From NCBI RefSeq assembly GCF_000001735.4, contig NC_003074.8:9362101-9426100 (forward strand): a DNA stretch of 64,000 nucleotides, read 5' to 3'. Below, in pieces: positions 10,274 through 63,845 of this stretch; positions within the stretch are counted from its first letter, which is position 1; every line of letters begins with the position of its first letter. The notes below the pieces were generated by a model. The model was not told the origin of the DNA, searched no databases, and worked only from the letters and a program-made list of their open reading frames with translations. A program made the translations under genes and the position numbers. The DNA comes from Arabidopsis thaliana. Lineage: Eukaryota; Streptophyta; Magnoliopsida; Brassicales; Brassicaceae.

Positions 10274-10347
10274 TGGCCTATACAGGGATCGAACCTGTGA
10301 CCTTCGCGTTATTAGCACGACGCTCTAACCAACTGAGCTAATAGGCC
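10274..10347 (-). tRNA. tRNA-Ile (anticodon AAT)
   Basis: On the minus strand the sequence folds as a complete 74-nt cloverleaf. The acceptor stem GGCCTAT pairs with ATAGGCC, followed by discriminator A. The D-arm is GCTC-AGTTGGTTA-GAGC. The anticodon arm TCGTG-CTAATAA-CGCGA has anticodon AAT. The T-arm is ACAGG-TTCGATC-CCTGT. A-box and B-box promoter sequences are intact and there is no intron. AAT (read as IAT) makes it isoleucine. The CCA end is not encoded, as in nuclear eukaryotic tRNA genes. Confidence 0.97.
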
Positions 10348-47261: not shown

Positions 47262-48309
47262 ATGGCTTCTTCTTCTGCTGCTATGTCTCTTGAATCCATC
47301 TCTATGACAACTCTCAACAATCTCTCTCGTAATCATCAATCTCACCGCAGTTCTCTTCTTGGTTTCTCAAGATCTTTCCAAAACCTTGGAATCTCATCTA
47401 ACGGTCCAGATTTCTCCTCCCGATCAAGATCTACTACTTCCAAGAACCTCAACGTTACTCGAGCTTTCTTCTGGAATTGGGGCAAGAAGACCGAAAACTC
47501 CAGACCAAGTAAGTTTAATAGTTTATAGATCCTTTTGTCTTTTAGTACACTGCGACTAAGTCAACGCCTGTTAATCCGATATTTTTCCTAGATTTGAGAC
47601 AAATCAAGATTTAAAGACTAATAATCCTTTTTGTTAGCTCAGAAATCAAAATGCTTTATTTCATAAGCAAAATCGATTAGATCTTTAAATGCCCTGCTCA
47701 AAATTGATTGGTCTAAAAAATAATCAGATCTTAAAAAAACAAAGTACCGAATTCATAAATTCGAGTTTTAATTATTCAGGTAAGATCCAAGAACTAAACG
47801 TGTATGAGCTCAACGAAGGAGATAGAAACAGTCCAGCAGTTCTTAAACTCGGCAAGAAACCAACAGAGCTTTGTCTCGGAGATCTCGTCCCATTCACAAA
47901 CAAACTCTACACCGGCGATCTCAAGAAACGCGTGGGAATCACGGCAGGTCTCTGCGTTTTGATCCAACACGTTCCTGAAAAGAGCGGTGACAGATTCGAA
48001 GCTAGTTACAGCTTCTACTTTGGTGACTATGGTCACTTGTCTGTACAAGGACAATACTTGACTTATGAAGACACGTTCCTCGCTGTCACTGGTGGCTCTG
48101 GAATCTTTGAAGGTGCGTACGGACAGGTTAAGCTTCGTCAGCTTGTGTATCCGACAAAACTGTTCTACACTTTTTACCTTAAAGGGTTAGCTAATGATTT
48201 ACCGCTGGAGCTTACTGGAACGGCGGTTACGCCGTCGAAGGATGTGAAACCGGCACCGGAAGCTAAGGCGATGGAGCCTAGTGGAGTTATAAGTAACTTT
48301 ACTAATTAA
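47262..48309 (+). CDS. AOC3: Allene oxide cyclase 3, chloroplastic
   Basis: Exons 47262-47508 and 47780-48309 (intron 271 bp) encode 258 residues. The transit peptide is longer and more diverged ([20 protein letters not shown]). The mature domain differs from AOC1/2 in the first strand ([20 protein letters not shown]) and in [17 protein letters not shown], where Gln replaces the Glu of IEHVPEK. The Glu, Asn, Pro and Cys active-site positions are kept, so activity is expected. Intron position and phase are identical in all three genes, which confirms tandem duplication. Divergence pattern suggests AOC3 split first and AOC1/AOC2 duplicated later. Confidence 0.96.
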
Positions 48310-51095: not shown

Positions 51096-52851
51096 ATGAT
51101 CAAGAACTTAAGTAATATGAAGAATGACAATCAGAAACGTGAAAAATGTTGCGAGTACATCGAAGCTCTCGAAGAAGAACGTCGCAAGATCAATGTTTTC
51201 CAACGCGAGCTTCCTCTTTGCGTAGAGCTCGTGACTCAAGGTACATACATATGCATTTACATTTCATATAAGATATAATGAGTTTATATATATGGATTAA
51301 ATGTTAGATCTAAAGATTTTTAAAAAATGTTTTATGGAATTTAGCGATTGAGGCGTATAAGAGGGAGATATCAGGGACGTCGACGGATAACTTATACGGA
51401 CAGTCGGAGTGCTCAGAGCAGACCACCGGAGAATGTGGGCGCATCTTGGATCTGTTCATACCAATCAAACACTCTTCGACCTCCATAGAAGAAGAGGTTG
51501 ATGACAAAGATGATGATGATGAAGAACACCAGTCTCATGAAACCGACATAGATTTTGATGACAAGAACATGAAATCTGAATGGCTCAAGTCTGTTCAGCT
51601 CTGGAACCAATCCGACGCAGTTGTTTCTAATAATAGACAGGTAAGATTTTTATTTTATTTTATTTTTTCTTTGTTTACATTTGTGTTTTTGTTTGCCTTG
51701 AATTACATTTACTGTATTGTTTCCAAACCAGCCTATTGACGTTGTTAATTGTTAACGTAAAGACTAAACGCATAACCTTCTGTGTACTTTATGCGATTGT
51801 GTTTGTAACTTACAACTTCACAAATAGATTATTCTTTTTTCTTCCAGTTTTTGTTTTTTTTAATAGACCGAAAAAGGATGGGTGCACAAAAAGATAGTAA
51901 ATTGCTCACAAAAAGATTTTGTTTTGTAATTTAAGTTTCTAATAGCATTTTGCGTATTCAGGATCGCTCACAAGAAAAGACAGAGACGCTGGTAGAGTTG
52001 ATAAAAATAAACGATGAAGCAGCGAAGAAAAACAACAACATAAAATCACCGGTGACTACTAGCGATGGTGGCAGTGGCGGTGGCGGTGGCAGAAGAGGGC
52101 AGAGAAAGAATAGGCGGTGTTGGTCGCAAGAGTTACACAGACGCTTCTTGAACGCTCTTAAACAACTTGGTGGCCCTCATGGTGCGTTTCTTGGTTTTAA
52201 GTTAAAACATATATATCAGTAGTCATATCTTTTTGTTAGGGCTCATGAAGTTTAATTAATTCGTAATGACCTTTTTGTTCACTAAATTTTGAAGTAGCTA
52301 CGCCGAAACAGATAAGAGATATAATGAAGGTTGATGGGTTAACAAATGATGAAGTCAAAAGTCATTTACAGGTTAGTAAATCATATTCCATGAAAAATAC
52401 ATGTAACTAATATGTAAAAGGTATATATTAATTTCATCATTTTAGTTACAAATGTTTTTATAATTTAGAAGGAAAATAATATTTATTGTTTCATATTTTT
52501 TTTAATGATAAATAGAAATATAGGCTGCATGCAAGACGGCCAAGCCAAACAACACCGAACAACAGAAACTCTCAAACGCAACATTTCGTGGTGGTTGGTG
52601 GAATATGGGTCCCACAGACTAACCATTCAACGGCCAACGCAGTCAACGCCGTCGCATCGGGTGAGACCACCGGGATTTATGGGCCTATGGTCAGTTCGTT
52701 GCCGTCCGAGTGGCCGAGGCATTCCAATTTTGGTAGGAAGATTTCGGAAGATAGATCAAGATGCTCTAACAACGGATTTTTTCGGTGTAGCTCACCAGCT
52801 ATGTCTTGTTCTACTCGTACAAAGACGAAAGATGCAAAAATAATATCATAA
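51096..52851 (+). CDS. HHO1: GARP-family MYB-like repressor HHO1 (HRS1 homologue)
   Basis: Five exons (51096-51240, 51345-51640, 51962-52181, 52295-52371, 52516-52851) join in frame to 357 residues, all introns GT-AG. The N-terminal domain (about 12-55, [20 protein letters not shown] then AIEAYKREI) is the coiled region typical of HHO/NIGT1 proteins. An acidic Asp/Glu run lies near 100-130, and LDLFI near residue 75 resembles a weak EAR motif. The GARP/G2-like domain at about 194-254 contains [20 protein letters not shown], then [20 protein letters not shown] and VKSHLQKYRLH. A Gly tract precedes it. The C-terminal [11 protein letters not shown] motif is also family-specific. Family members are nuclear repressors linking nitrate and phosphate-starvation responses. 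Confidence 0.94.
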
Positions 52852-55613
52852 ATTTAATTTTTGATTATTTATTAAGAGAAAAAAGTTATAGACATTAATA
52901 TTGTGAAGAGTGTATATATATAGATGTTGGAGCGTGACTCTATGTTATTTTTAGTTTCTTGGTTTTTTTCTATTAGCCGATGATATCTTTGATCAAAGAT
53001 CCATATTAGCTAATGCATACTATATTTTTTTACGTCGTGCAATATGCATATCGATGATAATAAGTTAATAACACAAAATTATTAGATTACTAGTTGAAGA
53101 ATCGTATATAGAAAGAATCGTAATTATATGTAGAATGATGGTATATTATCAGCATATATTTTTATAGAGGCTTTAGCCACCAAAATTAATAAATGTCAGT
53201 CACAAACTCAAATTAATTAATTTCGTCCTTAACATATGTATGTCGGCCAGGTTTCTATTTGCTATAGTAATATAAGATACACAGAAACATTGTAGAAATG
53301 TAAAATGTCTTCGAAAACAGAAGAAAAATACATATATAAACTTTTTTGAATGAAAATAAAAAAAATTATGCCATACAGAAGGATCGGAACTCGGTAGAAT
53401 ATGCCGGAATCTGAAGAGCATAATCTGCAAATATGTTTTTCAGGTTAAACTTTATTCTCTTGTTGCTTGTACTGGATATTAACACAAATGTGCACGTTGG
53501 GCTCCTTCTCGTGGAGTGAATTATTCTTTATTTGTTCCTTTTACTTTTGTAAATACAATTTTTCCATATAAGTATATAACTGTGTAAATATTAAACCCAA
53601 AATATGTTAAAAGACAAGTTTTTTTGTAACTTAAGGGCAAGAAACAAGGTGTAAAGCCACATGAAAATTGCTGACCATTCTAACTCTCGACACTACTATA
53701 CAATTAATATCTCTTGACTTGTACTCATTCTCTATAACAACAACAATTGTTGGGTTTTCTTGTTCGCTCTCACTGTTGTTTATTAAGTGTTGTTCGTTTG
53801 CGAGGTTTTCTGAATCAATAATCAAAATGATTTCGATTGATAAGTTATCCTTTAATCAAAATTTCTTGGTTCCTATGGTTTCATCACCTCAAACATAAAA
53901 AAATCATACCAAGTTGTTAAATATCTTTAAAAATTCCTACCAAGTTACTAAATAAGTGTTCACAAATTTAGGGATCCTTTCATGTGACTCTATGAGCCAT
54001 GTGACCTATTTTTCTACTACCTTTATAACAAATGGGGCTACAGTTTTAATAATATTCTTACTGATAATTTAATTTGAATACGAAGACCATTGGGAAACTT
54101 GAACATTGAGAAAGGCTATTGGAGTTCCCGAGATGGCGGTTTGATCTATTTCAAATCTTCAATAATATTACTATTATCAAATACTTCTTTGATTCTATAG
54201 ATGTGTAAGTATTAATAATTTAATATTTGACGATGGATCCAAAAGAACAGGAATCGGATTAGGGTTTCCTTATGATATGATTTATTAATAGATTGGAATG
54301 GGTTTTAAACTCTTAGAAGCAGGATCTTTATGTGACCTTTCAGAGTCATAAAAAGCCTAAATAGCTCTTGATACTTACTTTAAGACCATTATGAGATCAA
54401 ACCATGGAAAAATAAACAAATAGTAAAGCAACAAATGCTTTTTCTTGGTCTATACTTCATTACTTCTCATATTAACTAATATCATATCCATAAGGAATAT
54501 TCGACTACACCTATTATTAATTGTATAATGTTAGTTCATAATTTATCTACATTTGTGCATAAACAATTAAACATATCTCTGATTAACAATAATAAAATAT
54601 ATAGTACGTGCTAATCTTGTTTTAATCTTCTCTTATATAAGATTAGGATTGATCAACCAAGTTTGACATGGTGTCTTAGTCTTATAGGAGTGAAATTTTT
54701 AATCAACCTTCCAAGGATTCTTTCGTCTATCCACGATGACGAATAGGTTGAAATGGAAACAGATTTCTTTCAGTTCTATACGTGTTTGATTTTATTTTTC
54801 TTTTAATAATACAAAATAATTATCAATGAAACTATTTAAATAGTCTCAGAGCTATAAATGTAATAAAGTAACAATGTTTACTAATTTTCTAATAGCAACA
54901 TGATGTTTCATTATGTTCTTTAATTATTTCTGCAAAACAAGTATCAATTTGGGATTCAGCTAACGTTGAGTGCTAGCTGCTCTTCACATTTGCACACAAT
55001 TTTGGGCTAATGAGCCCGAAAAGTTTACGAAGATGGACCAAGCCCGTTTATAGCCCCCGAGGTTAAAATTCCGAAAGGTTAATTCCCAAAAACTTAAAGG
55101 TTTTGACGATCTAAATTTTGATTTTAATGAACGGAAATAGTAAATGACCTGAAATAGAAAAAAATCAACTAGATAATCTACAATTTAAAGATTTGCAGAA
55201 AATCTTGGACGATAAAACAAGATACTAACATTTCTCACAGAATAATTTTGCTATAATAATTTAAAGTTCAGCTGCTATATTTTTTTTCCTTTGTTAATTT
55301 CATCTGCTATTTATTTGACCAAATTAAATATGTTATCTTGATTTGTTATCGTACGTCTACATAGTCTCTAATTTTAAAAAACAATTGCCGTAATTTTAGT
55401 TTTTATTTAATTGAAATTTTATTTACACATGTAACAAATAAAAAAAATGATTGAAAAGAATAATGTATATTATTTTAAAGTCATAACTAGTAACATGTAA
55501 AAAAGTAGTTATACATCACTATTTTAGGCAGTCAATGGTAATGAAAAAAAAAGAGCTTATTTTCTAGACCTGCATTGTTTATATTAATTTATACATAGTT
55601 GAAAATGAGATTC
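52852..55613. other. Intergenic region between HHO1 and TAS4
   Basis: AT-rich with no supported gene. A mixed-composition segment at about 54965-55080 contains GGGCTAATGAGCCC. The open frame at 53668-53898 has no domain. The 3' end of the TAS4 transcript probably falls in the last few hundred bases. Confidence 0.45.
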
Positions 55614-55636
55614 AAACTATGCTTTCAATAAATAGG

Positions 55637-55657
55637 TGAAGGATCGAGGTCGAGGCA
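55637..55657 (+). ncRNA. TAS4-siR81(-) trans-acting siRNA
   Basis: 21 nt on the plus strand, antisense to the precursor, in exact register D4 from the predicted cleavage. It begins with U, suitable for AGO1. Known targets are MYB75/PAP1, MYB90/PAP2 and MYB113, none of which are in this window. Confidence 0.85.
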
Positions 55658-55708
55658 CCATCGATATAGAGTCAGCTCGTCCTTCACCACGGCAATTTCA
55701 TGCCAACA

Positions 55709-55730
55709 TCTTGCTCAAATGAGTATTCCA
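55709..55730 (-). promoter_or_regulatory. miR828 target site in TAS4
   Basis: The plus-strand text TCTTGCTCAAATGAGTATTC then CA equals miR828 except C for T at position 8, so the minus-strand transcript pairs along all 22 nt with one G:U. It starts 18 nt downstream of the putative splice acceptor. Confidence 0.9.
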
Positions 55731-55748
55731 TGGAGAGTGATTGGTAAC

Positions 55749-57515
55749 CTGCAAAAGAAAAAGAAACTTAAAAAGGTTTATATGTATAAGGTTCACGTCA
55801 GTGTTTGAGTGACTTAAAAAAGTTTGTGTTAGTTATAAAACTAATATCTCATGGACTGACGTAAAGTTAATTAACTCTACGTAATTGTTGTTAATATCCT
55901 TCCCATTTTTCAATCTTACCTCATTTATACAAGTGTTGTTAATTAAGTGACCGGCGGTTTTTTTTTTTTTGTATATATGAGCATGCAAAATTACTAACTC
56001 TTACTACTAAACAAAATCTCTTTACTGTATATATGAGCATGCAAAATTAGTCATTATATTTTATTGTTAGTGAAACCTAAATAAACCAGAACCAGTGATA
56101 GTAAGTTAATCAATATAATCTGAAGGTGCGAAACATCAGCACGAACCCAAATTCGAGTTTTACGTATTGCGGACGTTAAAGATAATGAACTGATTTATCA
56201 AAAAAAGAAGAAGAAAGATAATGAAGTGAAAAACAAATTATAAAATAGAGTGAATTTTTTGTCCAAAAAAAAAAGAGTAAAATTAATGTTAAAAATAAAA
56301 ATAAAAATAAAAAATAGGTCAAATATTCTTTGTGTATAAAATAACCTAAACCAAAATATGGATAAAATAATTATTCCAGCAAAAGAGAAAAGGTAAGCTT
56401 TAACAAGAAAAAAAGAATGTTAAAACGTTAACATGCATAAACTTTAAAAAAATAGTAATCAACTAAAAGGGTAGTGTTTACCAAGCTAATACGATCCGAT
56501 TCTTTCAACATTTGTTTCTGTCTCGCTCTCTTTCTCGATATATGAATGAAAGGCATCATATTTTTATTTTTCTTATTAAAAGAAACCTTTGGAAGAACTT
56601 ATATAAAAAATGATCAAGTAGACTCTATTTAAATAGACAAAGTAAAGCTTACATACATGTGTATGTATATACGTGTTTGGTAGGAAATAACAATTGGGGT
56701 AAATCTAAGGTAGTAGAGAATTAGACATATAAATGTCTTTTATTTGTTTTGGTGGTTGGGATATATATGCTCTAACCTCCAACATTTTTTAATACTAAAT
56801 TGGCAATATACCTTATACAGTTATACTCATTGTATTGTCAGCGGTTATGTCTAATCACAATCATATACTATAACATAGTATGTTCTCATGCTATCAATTC
56901 ACAATTTCTTTGTATATAAATCAAATTTTTTGATGAGAAAATGTTAGTTAATTTGTAGGTTTATTCGAAAGATTTTTTCTTTAAGAAAAAAAAAAAAAGA
57001 TCGTCAAACAAAATGGATGGAATCACATATGCGATGTATGCTGCAGTGCCGGCCTTGAACATACATAAATATTTGATATTTTCATGTATAACAAGTCTTT
57101 TAAGGCTGGGCTTGTGGTTTTGAGAATTTGGTTATTACACGCTTCTTGCGTTTTGTATTTTTTTGGGTCATAAAAAATTTCACCCAAAATATTAAAATTT
57201 TGAATTATATATGGATAGATACACAGATATGTAAGCAAGTTCCATTCAGGTATCAAGTTTAGACTAATCGTAAAAAAGACGACGCCATATATTCGTAGTA
57301 ATTAATATACATATACCCCAATTAACAGAATTCGATTTCAAGCCCCCACAATCTATTAGTATATGCTTAATTCATCTTGTGTGATAGTTTGACGGGTTAT
57401 TATGTAAAACGTGCATGTGATGAGTGCTTACTTAGCAGTCTTGACTCTCGAGCCTACACGTTTGTTGCGCGCGTATGCATGCAGCATATATACACATGTA
57501 CGTAGATGTGAAATG
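55749..57515. other. TAS4 upstream region and spacer
   Basis: Probable TAS4 promoter and possible first exon/intron on the minus strand. No coding gene is visible. It contains the 23-bp direct repeat listed next and A-rich runs near 56200-56340. Toward 57000 are Asn/Ile-rich frames without domains. Confidence 0.5.
55971..56049. repeat. 23-bp direct repeat upstream of TAS4
   Basis: The 23-bp text starting GTATATATGAGCATGCAAAA is present exactly at 55971-55993 and 56027-56049, period 56. Each copy has a GCATGC/CATGCA core resembling the RY motif bound by B3 factors. It lies 240-320 bp upstream of the miR828 site in transcript orientation. Confidence 0.9.
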
Positions 57516-57523
57516 CATGCACT

Positions 57524-57717
57524 CAGGGCCGGCTCAACAAAACGTGGGACCCTGTGCTCATTAGTTTTTTTTTCTAATATATGTTTTATATGTTTAGATT
57601 TTAGTTTATTATACACTACTGTTTGTATAATGGACCTTGATTGCTTAAAGAAAATGAATGAAAAAATAAAGGACCCTGTGCACTAGCACCAAGGGCACAC
57701 CCTCTAAGCCGGGCCTG
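57524..57717. mobile_element. Non-autonomous hAT-type miniature element
   Basis: 194 bp with imperfect terminal inverted repeats, CAGGGCCGGCTCAA at the left and CTAAGCCGGGCCTG at the right. It is flanked by CATGCACT (57516-57523) and CATGCACA (57718-57725), an 8-bp duplication with one change. CAGGG-type ends plus 8-bp duplication are the signature of hAT transposons. The inside repeats GGACCCTGTGC twice (57548 and 57671) and has no transposase. The one mismatch and imperfect ends suggest it is old. Confidence 0.8.
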
Positions 57718-57725
57718 CATGCACA

Positions 57726-58571
57726 CATATATAATATATGTATATAACCATCACGATCGCGCGATACTGTTTCTTAAGTATGGTGACGTACGTAATTGAT
57801 TACTTGATGGTTCTACTACATAGAAAGGAAAACAAAAAATAAATATAAATGGGTTGTTTCATAAAATCTCAAACCAAACCAAAACCTAACTTAAATGTAG
57901 CTGAGTTATCATATACCATATGGTATAAATTTTGGAATGACTTTGTAGTTATTTATTGTAATTTAGAATGTTATAATTACTGATCATAATATTAAGTCAA
58001 AAACATCGAATCAATAAAAAGCGACATAGATTCTTAGTAATTATACCGGCCAAATAATACTATTAAACAAAAGTTACAAAAAAGGATCCGTATATCGTGA
58101 AAATCAATCACATGCATCAAACAATAGAATGAATTAATTCACGCCGGAACATCTACTTGGTTTGATTTTAAAACTAAACCGAACCAAACATATTAAAAAT
58201 CGAAATAAACCGACCAAAAACCAAAACCTTAATTATCCCTAAATAATTTCACCAAAATAAATATATTCAAAGCAACATGCTTGTGTTAAGTAGCTTTTGA
58301 AACTCCATATTGTTCCATTTACACTACGTTATGATATTAACAAGACGATATATGGGTTCCAGTTCCACTTACAAGTACAAAAAAGAGTTGTAGAAGCATC
58401 AAATCTATGACAACTCCCCTTCAAAGTTCAAAGTTCAAAGTTATGAATGATTAAATTGATCAAGTTTCACGTGGAGTGGTGGATATACTCACCATTTAAT
58501 ATCTCAACTCTATATATATTTCTTATTTAAAAAAAAAAAAGAATTTAAACGCATATTAAAAAGCATCGCAA
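57726..58571. other. Intergenic spacer
   Basis: AT-rich, with nothing recognisable beyond short TA-rich runs. At about 58140-58230 repeated AACCGAACCAAACC-like text of the kind common in Arabidopsis intergenic DNA occurs. Confidence 0.45.
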
Positions 58572-58670
58572 GAGCTTTTTGCTTGGATGGTTGTTGGGGA
58601 TTTCAACGCAACCATCTCGCTATCAGATGCTTCCACTCCAAATGTCACGCATTACTCTCCAGCCACGGAA
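58572..58670 (+). pseudogene. LINE endonuclease relic
   Basis: A frame of 33 codons reads ELFAWMVVGDFNATISLSDA and ends PATE. The W-M-V-x-G-D-F-N core is the conserved endonuclease signature of plant LINE ORF2, where the Asp and Asn are catalytic. Sequence on both sides is decayed. Confidence 0.7.
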
Positions 58671-59051
58671 ATATCTTTCACTTGTGCTTTTTGAATAGTG
58701 ATTTATTTAATTTTGACTATTTAAGGTCCCACTTGATCAAATAGAAAACCTAATTGCGAATATGCTCTCTTTTATTCACAAAACAGTGGCTATCAAATCG
58801 TAAATAACTTGGTACATTTATCGTAAAATAATATTACACTATTCATTTAAATTACTTGTATTATATATCATTTATTTACGGTTTTTGTCACAATTGTTTT
58901 CATATTAATTTTGCTATATAAATTTGGTTATGTAGCTAATAAGCATATACAAAATATTGTTTTTCATTAATCTGCATTTCATTTTGTTTTATCCAATCCG
59001 TGATTCATAATAACACACTTTAGTTTTGGAGTTTCATTGTTTCAATATAAG

Positions 59052-59345
59052 CTTCCTACTCCGATCCTAAACATATATATCTTGAAGAGTTGGAGAAGAT
59101 TTGTTATGCATTCTTATGGAAATGAATCACGTCTTCAACACATGGAGTCAAAATGACTTGAGATTCTTATTGCTTTTCAAAATAATGTGGATGTCTTTGC
59201 ATGAGAAGATTAATCGATTGGAAAAAGATTTTCGTGTTTAAGTTGATTCGACTCTTGTTTTGGGAGAAAGTTTGCTATATATGTATCACGGATTTTCAAG
59301 AATTTGATGGAAGACTCTATTTTCTAGGTTTTCAACTACCAAAAC
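59052..59345 (+). pseudogene. LINE reverse-transcriptase C-terminal relic, multiply broken
   Basis: Pieces of the LINE RT tail appear in order across frames: LPTPIL near 59052, LEKICYAFLWK near 59089, a GLGMRRL-like piece (CMRRLIDWKKIFVFKL) near 59195 and LLFW. Several stops and frame changes separate them. It has the same orientation and domain order as the endonuclease relic 0.4 kb upstream, so both may be remains of one internally deleted element. Confidence 0.6.
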
Positions 59346-60721
59346 GTAGGTAGCTGGATCATTCATGGTATTCAATTGACTGATGATCCTAGCTAGCATT
59401 GAGCATGTTTATAACTTTTCTTTCCTCAATATATAGTGTACTGTCTATTTTACATAAATCTCCAAGCTCTCCACAGTTTTTGTCATTCAGATAAAAAGTT
59501 TTATCAGAATAAAATTTGTAGAGGGTGGGAATCTTTGTTGATGATATAATTAAAACAAACAATTTTTTTTTGGCAGGTGGAACAAAAACAAAATAAACAA
59601 CTCTGTTTGATTGCAACTACACAATAAAAGTTCTAACCAAAAAGGTATGTAAAATGATTTTATTTTAAGAAAAAAAAAATGATTTTATTTTATTTATTTT
59701 GGGAATAAATCTACCAAATATTAAATGTTAGAATGTTGATGGCAACGGAACCATCCACGCGGCAATGAACATGGCCTTTCAAAAATTAGGTTCTTTTTTT
59801 TTTTTGATAATTGGAAAACGGCTTACAAATTCATACTATAACATTACATAGAATATAACTATATAATATAAAAATGAAATGAATACTAAGCTGTTAAGAA
59901 TACTTTATTAAAAGATAAACATCAATATTGAAAAAAAAAAAAAAACAAATCAAGTTGATTGTGGAAAGAGAAGATTAGACAAGAACCGAAACAGTCGGCC
60001 ATAATTAAGCAATGGTTAACTTTTAATCTTTTAGTGTTGTGGATTTTGAAAACACTACTCGGTCTTAAGCAGTTCAATTGTGTTACAACGATGTTACGTG
60101 CCCTCTTACAAAAATTGTGTTAAGACGATGTTCACGTTTTTCGAAAACTAATCCAATGTGAAATGATGAAATAAATCGAACTATAAATTTGTTTGGTTAT
60201 ATGACTAGTACTATAAAACAAAAACTTGCTTGCTTATATCAATAGTAGGGGGGAAATCGTGATACACTTTTACTGAAAATGATCTTTCTTTTCTTTTTTT
60301 GTTCTTTCAATGCAAATTTTGTAACATGTTACATTTTCGAATTCATTTTTTCTAAATGTACTTCTCAAATAATATTGGTACTAGTAGAACATTACCAGAA
60401 AATTTTAACACGATTATCAACACGTTTTATTCGTAGTTAGTTAGGCTTAAGCAGCACGTTGAAAAATACAAGTAACTAACTACGAATACATGATCTACGA
60501 AAAATGTTTGTTGAACTAAACGAAAAGTTATCAACATAGAGTTTTAAACACATTAGTAGCAAGACAATGGACAAAACCCGTACCGAGGCACTCTAGTAGT
60601 TTGCGTGTAATAAAAAACACAAGACGAGAATCCACTACTACGTTACAAAAGTCTTGAGATTTGTTTTTTTTTTCAATCAAATAGAAAACGATTATAAGCA
60701 GAGAGACAAGATCTAATGGTT
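59346..60721. other. Intergenic spacer and PP2AA2 3' flank
   Basis: AT-rich with poly-A and poly-T runs. Nothing coding. The 3' UTR of PP2AA2 must occupy the last few hundred bases. Confidence 0.5.
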
Positions 60722-61445: not shown

Positions 61446-63683
61446 ATTTCTATAAATAAGAAGCGGTATAATCTGATCATTCCCAGTAAAAGTAAGAGAG
61501 AGAAAGAAATACCTTGTCTTGTAACCATTGCATGCAAAGAGCACCAAGCTTATCGTCAAAGAAGCCAACACCTAACTGACTTGCCAACAAAGGGATATAC
61601 TCGATTATAGCAAGTCTTACTCTCCAGTGTCTATCTTCAGCAAGTTCTACAATAGCTGGCAACAAGGATTGTGATAGTAGATCAATCCCAATAACCTGCC
61701 ACATATAAAATATAGAAGTCATCAACTGAATATGGATGGGCGAGAAAGGCAAGTTAAAAGAGTGAAAGTCTTTTAAACAAAACATGTTATCATGAAGCCA
61801 TTGGCATGATCTGGTTTGGGTATTTCTGTTGTAACAAACCTGATTCACTTGGTCAAGTTTGCTGATAATGTTCAAGCGTACATCCGGGAACTCATCTTTC
61901 AATAGAGAAAGAAAGATTGGAAGGAGATGCTCAATTGTTGCATCCTAAAATAGAAAAAACAACGTGAAGTTAAAATCTGCAACATACACAATCCAACCAA
62001 AACATCCTGTATAAGAAACGCACGTCAATTAAACTCATTTTTGTACAATTGGTAACAACCTAAGTATATTTCTTCTTAATGATGAAAGAGCACATGAGAC
62101 GCTTCAGACATCAGGACGAAAAACAGTTGGACATAGTCATAATCATTAAGATGCTAAAATGAATTTGTGCATTATGAACCAACACATCTCTGTTTGCAAA
62201 CTCTCTTACCTTACCCAAGACTGGAGCCATTCCCATTATAACTGAGGCCAATGCAGATCTGACATGCTGAGAAGAGTCTGATGATAGCTCCTACAGGTAG
62301 CATTAAGAGGAATCATCAGTAATATGCAACAACTATACGTTGATTTTCTGTAAGGAACTTGGAAAACAATTGAATTCTCTTAAGCATGTACCTTCACACA
62401 GGGGAGAATGTGCTGGATAGCAATTTCAGGGTTTAGAATCCGACAAAACTTTGTAACTTTTCCGGCAGCTGCTATGCGTACTTCAGCTTCATTATCACGA
62501 AGTAGGCGCACATATGCAGGCACCAGCTCCGTCCTTAAAATAGAAGACACAGTAAATAGTATCAAGAGGAAGTAAATGGGATCATCAAGTTCCTTAAGCC
62601 TATTGGATGATATGCATTTCTATATTGAACATTAAATTAGCCCATCAAAGGTATTAAAACATGCTGCATTAGGTTTATGCAAAACGTTCTTACCTAGTAG
62701 GCTCAGGTCCCACGGCTTCACAAAGCTCGTAGAGTTGATTTGCAACCATATAGCGCACACGCCAAGACTTATCCTGCTCAGTGAAAAAGTACAAAGATTA
62801 AGCATTTCTTTTAAATGTAGATCATCAGCATAAAAGCCTACAGACATAATCACCTGCGAGAAATTAACAATCACGGGAAGAATGTGTTGGACACAATCCT
62901 GAGGCTCCAACAATTTCCCAAGAGCAGCACAACCCTCAACGGCCAATAATCTAACAGAATCTTGATCTGATATGAAAAAAACGTAAGATGAAATTCGACA
63001 AATATATATGCTGTAGAGTAAATAAACGCTCAGTGTTCAATACCATCTTGAGTAAGATCCTCAAACATGGACATAACGTCGGTCTTCAAATGCGCTGATT
63101 CAACCGTAGCAGCAAATTTCCCAAGATTAGTTGCTGCAGCTCTCCTTACCATCGGCATATCATCCTGACAAAGCTGAGTATACAACGATCTTAACTCAGT
63201 CTTCAACATATCCGGCGCGCTCGGGTATGCAATATGGAAAACACCGCAAGCCGATACTCTAGCTGTGAACCACTCACCAGCGGCAAGTCGCTTAACTAAC
63301 GAAATGAAATGATCAACCAAGTCACTCTCCCTCATCTGAGAGCCAACTCTACAAAGCGACTCAACAGCTTTCTCCCTAACACAAGTTTCTTCGACAGTCG
63401 AAAGAGTTTCCAAAGGTGGAAGAAGAACATGTGCATACTCAACACCACCAACATAAGGAATAAACACACCCAATTCTTCAGCCATTGCTAATAAAACCTC
63501 ATCATCATCGTCATTGTTTTCGCTAAGGAAAGGGATCAATTCCTTTCTAGTCCTCTCTTCCCCAAGAGCACGAGCGATCGTAGAAAGCCTTCTGATGGAA
63601 TTCAATCTTAGCTGAATATCATCGTTTTTTAACTCGTCTATAAGTACGGCGATTGGGTACAACGGCTCATCGATCATAGACAT
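60722..63683 (-). CDS. PP2AA2: PP2A scaffold subunit A2 (PR65/PDF1), HEAT-repeat protein
   Basis: Eleven minus-strand coding exons join to 587 residues: 63683-63044, 62966-62854, 62773-62694, 62533-62392, 62290-62210, 61944-61840, 61695-61513, 61392-61300, 61217-61078, 60991-60925, 60841-60722. The protein starts [20 protein letters not shown] and is built throughout of HEAT repeats (for example [54 protein letters not shown]). Such A subunits are curved scaffolds that hold the catalytic C and regulatory B subunits of protein phosphatase 2A. In Arabidopsis PP2AA proteins act in auxin transport through PIN dephosphorylation; this paralogue overlaps with RCN1. All introns are GT-AG except the one after 61078, which has donor AG|GCAAGT (GC-AG). 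A 33-nt homopolymer lies close to the acceptor of exon 8. Confidence 0.95.
61410..61442. repeat. 33-nt A/T homopolymer in PP2AA2 intron 7
   Basis: An uninterrupted run of 33 A on the plus strand (33 U in the pre-mRNA). It ends 17 nt before the splice acceptor at 61393, so it acts as the polypyrimidine tract. Likely length-variable. Confidence 0.95.
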
Positions 63684-63845
63684 CTTCAACAACACCAACA
63701 ACAAAATTACAGCATAATTATAACGAGATCGTAAAATCAATTTCCAGAGCCCAATTCTCAGGAGATGATCAATTAGGCGAATCTAAATTACCATTTCTAT
63801 CAAAAGATAAACAGACCAACAATCAAATCGGAAATTGGGTCTTAC
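63684..63845 (-). other. Probable 5' UTR intron of PP2AA2
   Basis: On the minus strand a good donor (GTTGAG|GTAAGA, intron from 63845) is followed by a T/G-rich stretch ending GTTGTTGAAG directly before the start codon at 63683. An intron of about 162 bp in the leader fits, although the acceptor is weak and unspliced use remains possible. The frame is open through part of it but has no strong reason to be coding. Confidence 0.5.

Follow-up and report, generated by a model that had tools for sequence, protein, structure and literature searches.

Register, MYB resemblance and a predicted fold at the TAS4 locus of Arabidopsis thaliana

The question raised by this locus is whether the phasing of its small RNAs can be proved from the sequence alone, as a first-pass annotation of the window (the whole 64,000-nt stretch analysed) had claimed, and what the sequence holds beyond the known locus. 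The region at 55614-55748 is almost certainly TAS4 of A. thaliana, a minus-strand tasiRNA locus which is triggered by miR828 and produces siR81(-) against MYB75, MYB90 and MYB113. Three things identify it, namely the miR828 site, an exact match to siR81(-) and published work, and its name is presumably AT3G25795. The same identifier is used for TAS4 in the literature, including the available text of PMC10656695. The locus, its trigger, its cleavage and D4(-) are already in print, and the register is established biology; the description of the region as a known locus was borne out by published TAS4 work, as far as the available parts of PMC6297172, PMC7352941 and PMC10656695 extend. Beyond the known locus, two leads of moderate interest were followed, namely the relation of TAS4 to the MYB genes and a fold which might mask the siR81(-) site.

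The miR828 letters used appear in published papers. The sequence TCTTGCTCAAATGAGTATTCCA on the plus strand at 55709-55730 was checked and is the miR828 site of the minus-strand transcript, pairing with miR828 through 21 Watson-Crick pairs and one G:U wobble. Position 10 of the miRNA lies opposite 55718 and position 11 opposite 55719, and the pairing predicts a cut between 55719 and 55718; TAS4, the minus strand and the trigger position had thus been read correctly in the first-pass annotation. The 22-nt miR828 itself was found within a strong hairpin of the same genome (MIR828, C4:13847020-13847041, -64.9 kcal/mol), which forms a long stem with nearly perfect pairing (L004 1471-1650). In the portions of the reports available, the predominant TAS4 cut in potato was placed by RACE between nucleotides 10 and 11 of miR828 (PMC6297172), and BrTAS4 cleavage was also mapped via RACE in Brassica rapa (PMC7352941). 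The accessible part of PMC3925372 gives zero miR828 reads and suggests another trigger. Using Rfam at the gathering threshold over the whole window, nothing was matched at TAS4; the only match was a tRNA gene on the minus strand (10274-10347).

Counting in 21-nt steps from the cut, D1(+) falls at 55698-55718, D2(+) at 55677-55697, D3(+) at 55656-55676, D4(+) at 55635-55655 and D5(+) at 55614-55634, all on the minus strand. TAS4-siR81(-), TGAAGGATCGAGGTCGAGGCA, matches exactly at 55637-55657 on the plus strand, where it pairs with the fourth 21-mer leaving 2-nt overhangs; it is the effector siRNA D4(-), with D4(+) as its sense partner. An identical sequence is printed in PMC3925372, with 13,783 wild-type reads in the part available. 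The coordinates assigned earlier to D1-D5, to D4 and its 55637-55657 partner and to the 55718/55719 cut are arithmetically exact on the sequence, but the statement that they prove phasing from sequence alone was overstated. The difference between 55718 and 55637 is 81, the number carried by siR81(-), and we infer that the siRNA was named after this distance. Since siR81(-) is known from small-RNA sequencing and its number equals the offset, the register test is partly circular, and the match checks the strand and the trigger yet is not an independent proof of phasing. Register alone is also weak evidence, because an exact in-register match is expected by chance in 1/21 on the antisense strand, or 2/21 counting either strand. 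Independent support for the register is modest; it comes from a 21-nt block defined solely by its identity to MYB75 (55656-55636), which lies one base off D4, and from Brassica rapa, where the geometry is retained. The known register serves as a check on the reading of window, strand and trigger.

According to the proposed pathway, the 22-nt miR828 would pair at 55730-55709 and direct the cut at 55719/55718. RDR6 would then make a second strand on the 3' fragment of TAS4, DCL4 would process the duplex every 21 nt, and the fourth antisense product, siR81(-) at 55637-55657, would repress MYB75, MYB90 and MYB113. Computed here were the miR828 site, the arithmetic of the register, the sites in MYB75, MYB90 and MYB113 that are nearly complementary to siR81(-), and the hairpin of MIR828; TAS4 cleavage, RDR6/DCL4 dependence and target repression were taken from the literature. 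On TAS4 function the literature, in the parts available, is not of one voice. In Arabidopsis treated with sucrose, D4(-) is described as outnumbering every other TAS4 species, and MYB75, MYB90 and MYB113 go up alongside it (PMC10656695); silencing of RDR6 in potato lowers D4(-) and leaves the colour unchanged (PMC6297172). Since the MYB genes rise with D4(-) and potato colour did not change, MYB repression may be strong or slight. Excerpts on other species report that most TAS4 reads in apple belong to the first and second register and that an Amborella miR828-triggered locus lacks the conserved D4(-).

The arrangement was compared with the partial B. rapa TAS4 sequence, taken from tables in PMC7352941. 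There the site lies at 663-684, the cut at 675, the start of sense D4 at 738 and the 5' end of the siR81-like antisense 21-mer at 756, and both the 63-nt distance from cut to D4 and the 81-nt distance from cut to siR81 are kept. Among bases known in both species, identity was 21/22 for the site, 21/21 for D1, 19/21 for D2, 4/5 for D3 and 20/21 for D4. Against the register, all seven published B. rapa TAS4 reads listed are 24 nt long; the 5' ends of three of them, all sense, are in the 21-nt register, including a D1(+) read which shares the start base of the A. thaliana D1(+), and none of the three antisense D4 reads is.

The genome (119.66 Mb, seven contigs), in which the window occupies 9362101-9426100 of contig 3, was searched allowing up to 3 mismatches, with the reversed sequence as control. 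siR81(-) matched six places (control, one), with 0 mismatches in TAS4, 1 in MYB75, 2 in MYB90, 3 in MYB113 (one of them a G:U) and 3 in each of two others; TAS4 was the sole exact match. D4(-) is thus complementary to three anthocyanin MYB genes, which we take to be MYB75, MYB90 and MYB113, names that the sequence fits. D1, D2, D3 and D5 were searched as alternative effectors; outside TAS4, D1 matched 4 places, D2 and D3 none (controls 1, 0 and 5, respectively), and D5 matched 28 places against 35 for its control. D1 and D2 are conserved in B. rapa about as well as D4, despite D2 having no other genome place and D1 four. The miR828 pattern was found at 13 places and its control at none. The loci read at 12 of the 13 comprised TAS4, MIR828 and ten others, eight of which carry WNTHL, WNTHM or WNTHI at the end of an R3-like context (L008 and L014 do not). 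Both miR828 and siR81(-) sites are present in MYB75 and MYB113.

The relation of TAS4 to these genes was then considered at the level of coding sequence. In TAS4, the miR828 site encodes WNTHLSK in the MYB reading frame and the siR81(-) site encodes PRPRSF, both in one frame with a stop between them; the transcript is non-coding, stops interrupting the MYB-like frame. TAS4 and the anthocyanin MYB genes have two colinear in-frame blocks in common, spaced by 75 nt (25 codons) in TAS4, 111 nt (37 codons) in MYB75 and 114 nt (38 codons) in MYB90 and MYB113. The PRPRSF block, at 55636-55656 on the minus strand, is identical to MYB75 over 21 nt. The coincidence of a MYB motif with the siR81(-) target is already printed in the accessible part of PMC8012628. 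MYB transcripts were also considered as sharing the TAS4 register, which is ruled out by offsets of 15 nt (MYB75), 18 nt (MYB90) and 18 nt (MYB113).

These blocks can be explained in two ways. TAS4 may have decayed from a subgroup 6 MYB gene, in which case both the trigger site (WNTHLSK of R3) and the effector site (PRPRSF) are remnant MYB coding sequence, and a spacing 12-13 codons shorter puts the second block into the D4 register; we hold this tentatively, leaning to the doubtful side. The in-frame TAS4 blocks and the 21-nt identity with MYB75 speak for it, as do MYB75 and MYB113, whose two sites share strand and order with those of TAS4 and lie about 110 nt apart. A grape paper, in the part available (PMC6404619, citing Rajagopalan 2006), describes PAP1/PAP2/MYB113, miR828 and TAS4 as closely related in evolution. 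Against descent, shuffle tests gave no significant homology beyond the two small-RNA sites, either between them or in the flanks. For the inter-site sequence, 388, 813 and 113 shuffles out of 2000 did as well as the global alignment with MYB75, MYB90 and MYB113, and 135, 1027 and 909 out of 2000 as well as the local one, respectively; the flanks (60 nt upstream and 150 nt downstream) were matched by between 543 and 990 shuffles out of 1000. The identity stops about at the site ends. Using tblastn of MYB75 open frames against 54500-60000, the exon 1 and exon 2 frames gave best E values of 0.79 and 0.40, with nothing convincing. With the exon 3 frame, 55730-55635 was matched at E 0.002, which was not counted as proof, the match being the two known sites; with composition correction off, low-complexity matches elsewhere were better (E 2e-4 in the same frame, 7e-4 in a non-coding frame).

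Both sites could instead have arisen through selection for complementarity without descent. A non-coding sequence may have separately gained a miR828 site and a MYB-complementary 21-mer, selection keeping the one in register, an explanation we find quite possible and not far short of an even chance. It agrees with the significant similarity being confined to the two functional sites, and it takes the order and frame shared with the MYB genes as chance (about 1 in 6); that order, strand and frame are the same, and the closeness similar, as in MYB75 and MYB113 counts against it. Taken together, the two blocks suggest that descent of TAS4 from a MYB gene is a reasonable, unproven reading. If TAS4 is a decayed MYB gene, a gene once targeted would have come to supply the regulator of its own family.

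Upstream of the miR828 site, splice-like signals mark a candidate intron at 55749-55919 on the minus strand, with a donor GAG/GTAAGAT at 55919 and an acceptor-like TTCTTTTTCTTTTGCAG (55749-55765) ending at 55749, 18 nt upstream of the site. The miR828 site of TAS4 may therefore lie near an exon start, as in MYB75, where it is in exon 3. A dispersed repeat occupies 55787-55951, just upstream of the miR828 site, with copies at C3:7724625 (80%), C2:17745083 (84%) and C1:24845445 (81%), and may be the remnant of a non-autonomous transposon; the donor-like GAG/GTAAGAT sits inside it. Four nearby reading frames were scanned with Pfam. The frame at 47689-48306 (+) encodes allene oxide cyclase, those at 63033-63740 (-) and 61480-61902 (-) have HEAT repeats, the former also with a sub-cutoff PPP2R1A-like match, and 51950-52219 (+) gave no Pfam match.

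The second lead is a hairpin predicted between D2 and D4 on the minus strand. Its 5' arm, GGTGAAGGACGAG (55676-55688), is held by D2 except for the last base, its 3' arm, CTCGATCCTTCACC (55635-55648), lies within D4, and D3 forms the inner region. The hairpin is probably a chance fold with no role. For a 131-nt stretch the z score was only -1.70 (12/200 shuffles as good), and the opposite strand folded no worse against shuffles (z -2.26, 4/200), so the hairpin is not special to the transcript strand. Pointing the other way, the fold of minus-strand 55690-55635 reached -20.8 kcal/mol with a z score of -3.05 (1/200 shuffles as good), and the best stem score was attained by 1 of 300 shuffles. Four of 5000 shuffles equalled the duplex of D1-D3 with D4 (-22.9), as did four of the 6090 63-nt windows taken from the 64 kb (both strands, step 21), TAS4 itself possibly being among the latter. 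The hairpin is predicted in the partial B. rapa sequence too, which likewise argues against chance. Covariation between A. thaliana and B. rapa was not found for the hairpin core; since both core arms are unchanged, conservation is no proof of a stem. Outside the core, one A. thaliana pair is lost in B. rapa and a different extension is predicted.

The cost of opening the siR81(-) site differed between TAS4 and the MYB genes. With flanks of up to 100 nt, it was 11.4 kcal/mol before and 12.7 after cleavage for TAS4, against 3.7 for MYB75, 3.6 for MYB90 and 4.4 for MYB113, the MYB contexts being genomic sequence round the site, mostly exon 3, rather than full mRNAs. At the miR828 site the costs were 5.1 for TAS4 and 5.5, 4.6 and 6.7 kcal/mol for MYB75, MYB90 and MYB113, respectively. 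The range over flanks of 40 to 150 nt was 12.0-18.2 for TAS4 and 3.0-5.9 for the MYB genes, and at 22 °C the values were 14.5 versus 5.0-6.3. The partial B. rapa stretch gave 15.9, and the A. thaliana stretch with the same Ns 17.0. In favour of a chance fold, 13 of 143 TAS4 21-mers sampled were at least as costly to open as the siR81(-) site, and the TAS4 value was reached by 17 of 300 shuffled flanks. In the MYB75, MYB90 and MYB113 contexts, 74, 82 and 78 of 91 21-mers were at least as costly as the site. Flanks as open as those of the MYB75, MYB90 and MYB113 sites arose in 15, 24 and 91 of 300 shuffles, so the effect of flank context is suggestive only.

We also considered the idea that TAS4 shields its precursor from its own effector, the D2:D4 hairpin (55688-55676/55648-55635) hiding the siR81(-) site while the MYB sites stay open; this seems unlikely. 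Being antisense, siR81(-) has its only perfect match of the genome search in the TAS4 transcript. siR81(-) would be expected to cut TAS4 at 55647/55646, offsetting the register by 9 nt, and the fold would hinder this cut. One of the three B. rapa antisense reads, 24 nt long and listed with the highest count (18), has a 5' end that fits the self-cleavage register, which leans against masking; it was not taken as evidence, because the reads are 24 nt long and the chance of such a fit is 1 in 21. If masking is true, the feedback loop would silence MYB genes and still leave the RNA that feeds it intact, and a real fold would explain how an antisense tasiRNA spares its precursor and offer a design rule for artificial tasiRNA loci. 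Neither the MYB relic nor the masking idea is stated in the parts of the TAS4 literature examined, and TAS4 origin, evolution, secondary structure or hairpin as exact phrases were not found in the literature searched; Rajagopalan 2006, Hsieh 2009, Luo 2012 and Rock 2013 may state either idea.

Compared with known systems, the locus is the TAS4/miR828/siR81(-) module of A. thaliana and other eudicots, with the same locus, trigger, cleavage position, register and MYB targets, and no difference was seen. TAS1 and TAS2, triggered by miR173, resemble TAS4 in having a single 22-nt miRNA trigger and 21-nt phasing downstream of the cut, and differ in the trigger and the targets. The best known effectors of TAS1 and TAS2 come from the sense strand, whereas siR81(-) of TAS4, coming from the antisense strand, pairs perfectly with its own precursor. 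TAS1, TAS2 and TAS4 are grouped as one-hit loci in the available text of PMC12127299. The closest parallel to a precursor facing its own siRNA is cis-cleavage, in which siRNAs of TAS1c and TAS3 cut the transcripts they come from; like siR81(-), such siRNAs are complementary to the precursor, for example TAS1c 3'D10(-) (PMC3742267 and PMC12127299, in the parts available). TAS4 would differ from TAS1c and TAS3 in the predicted hairpin that buries its complementary site.
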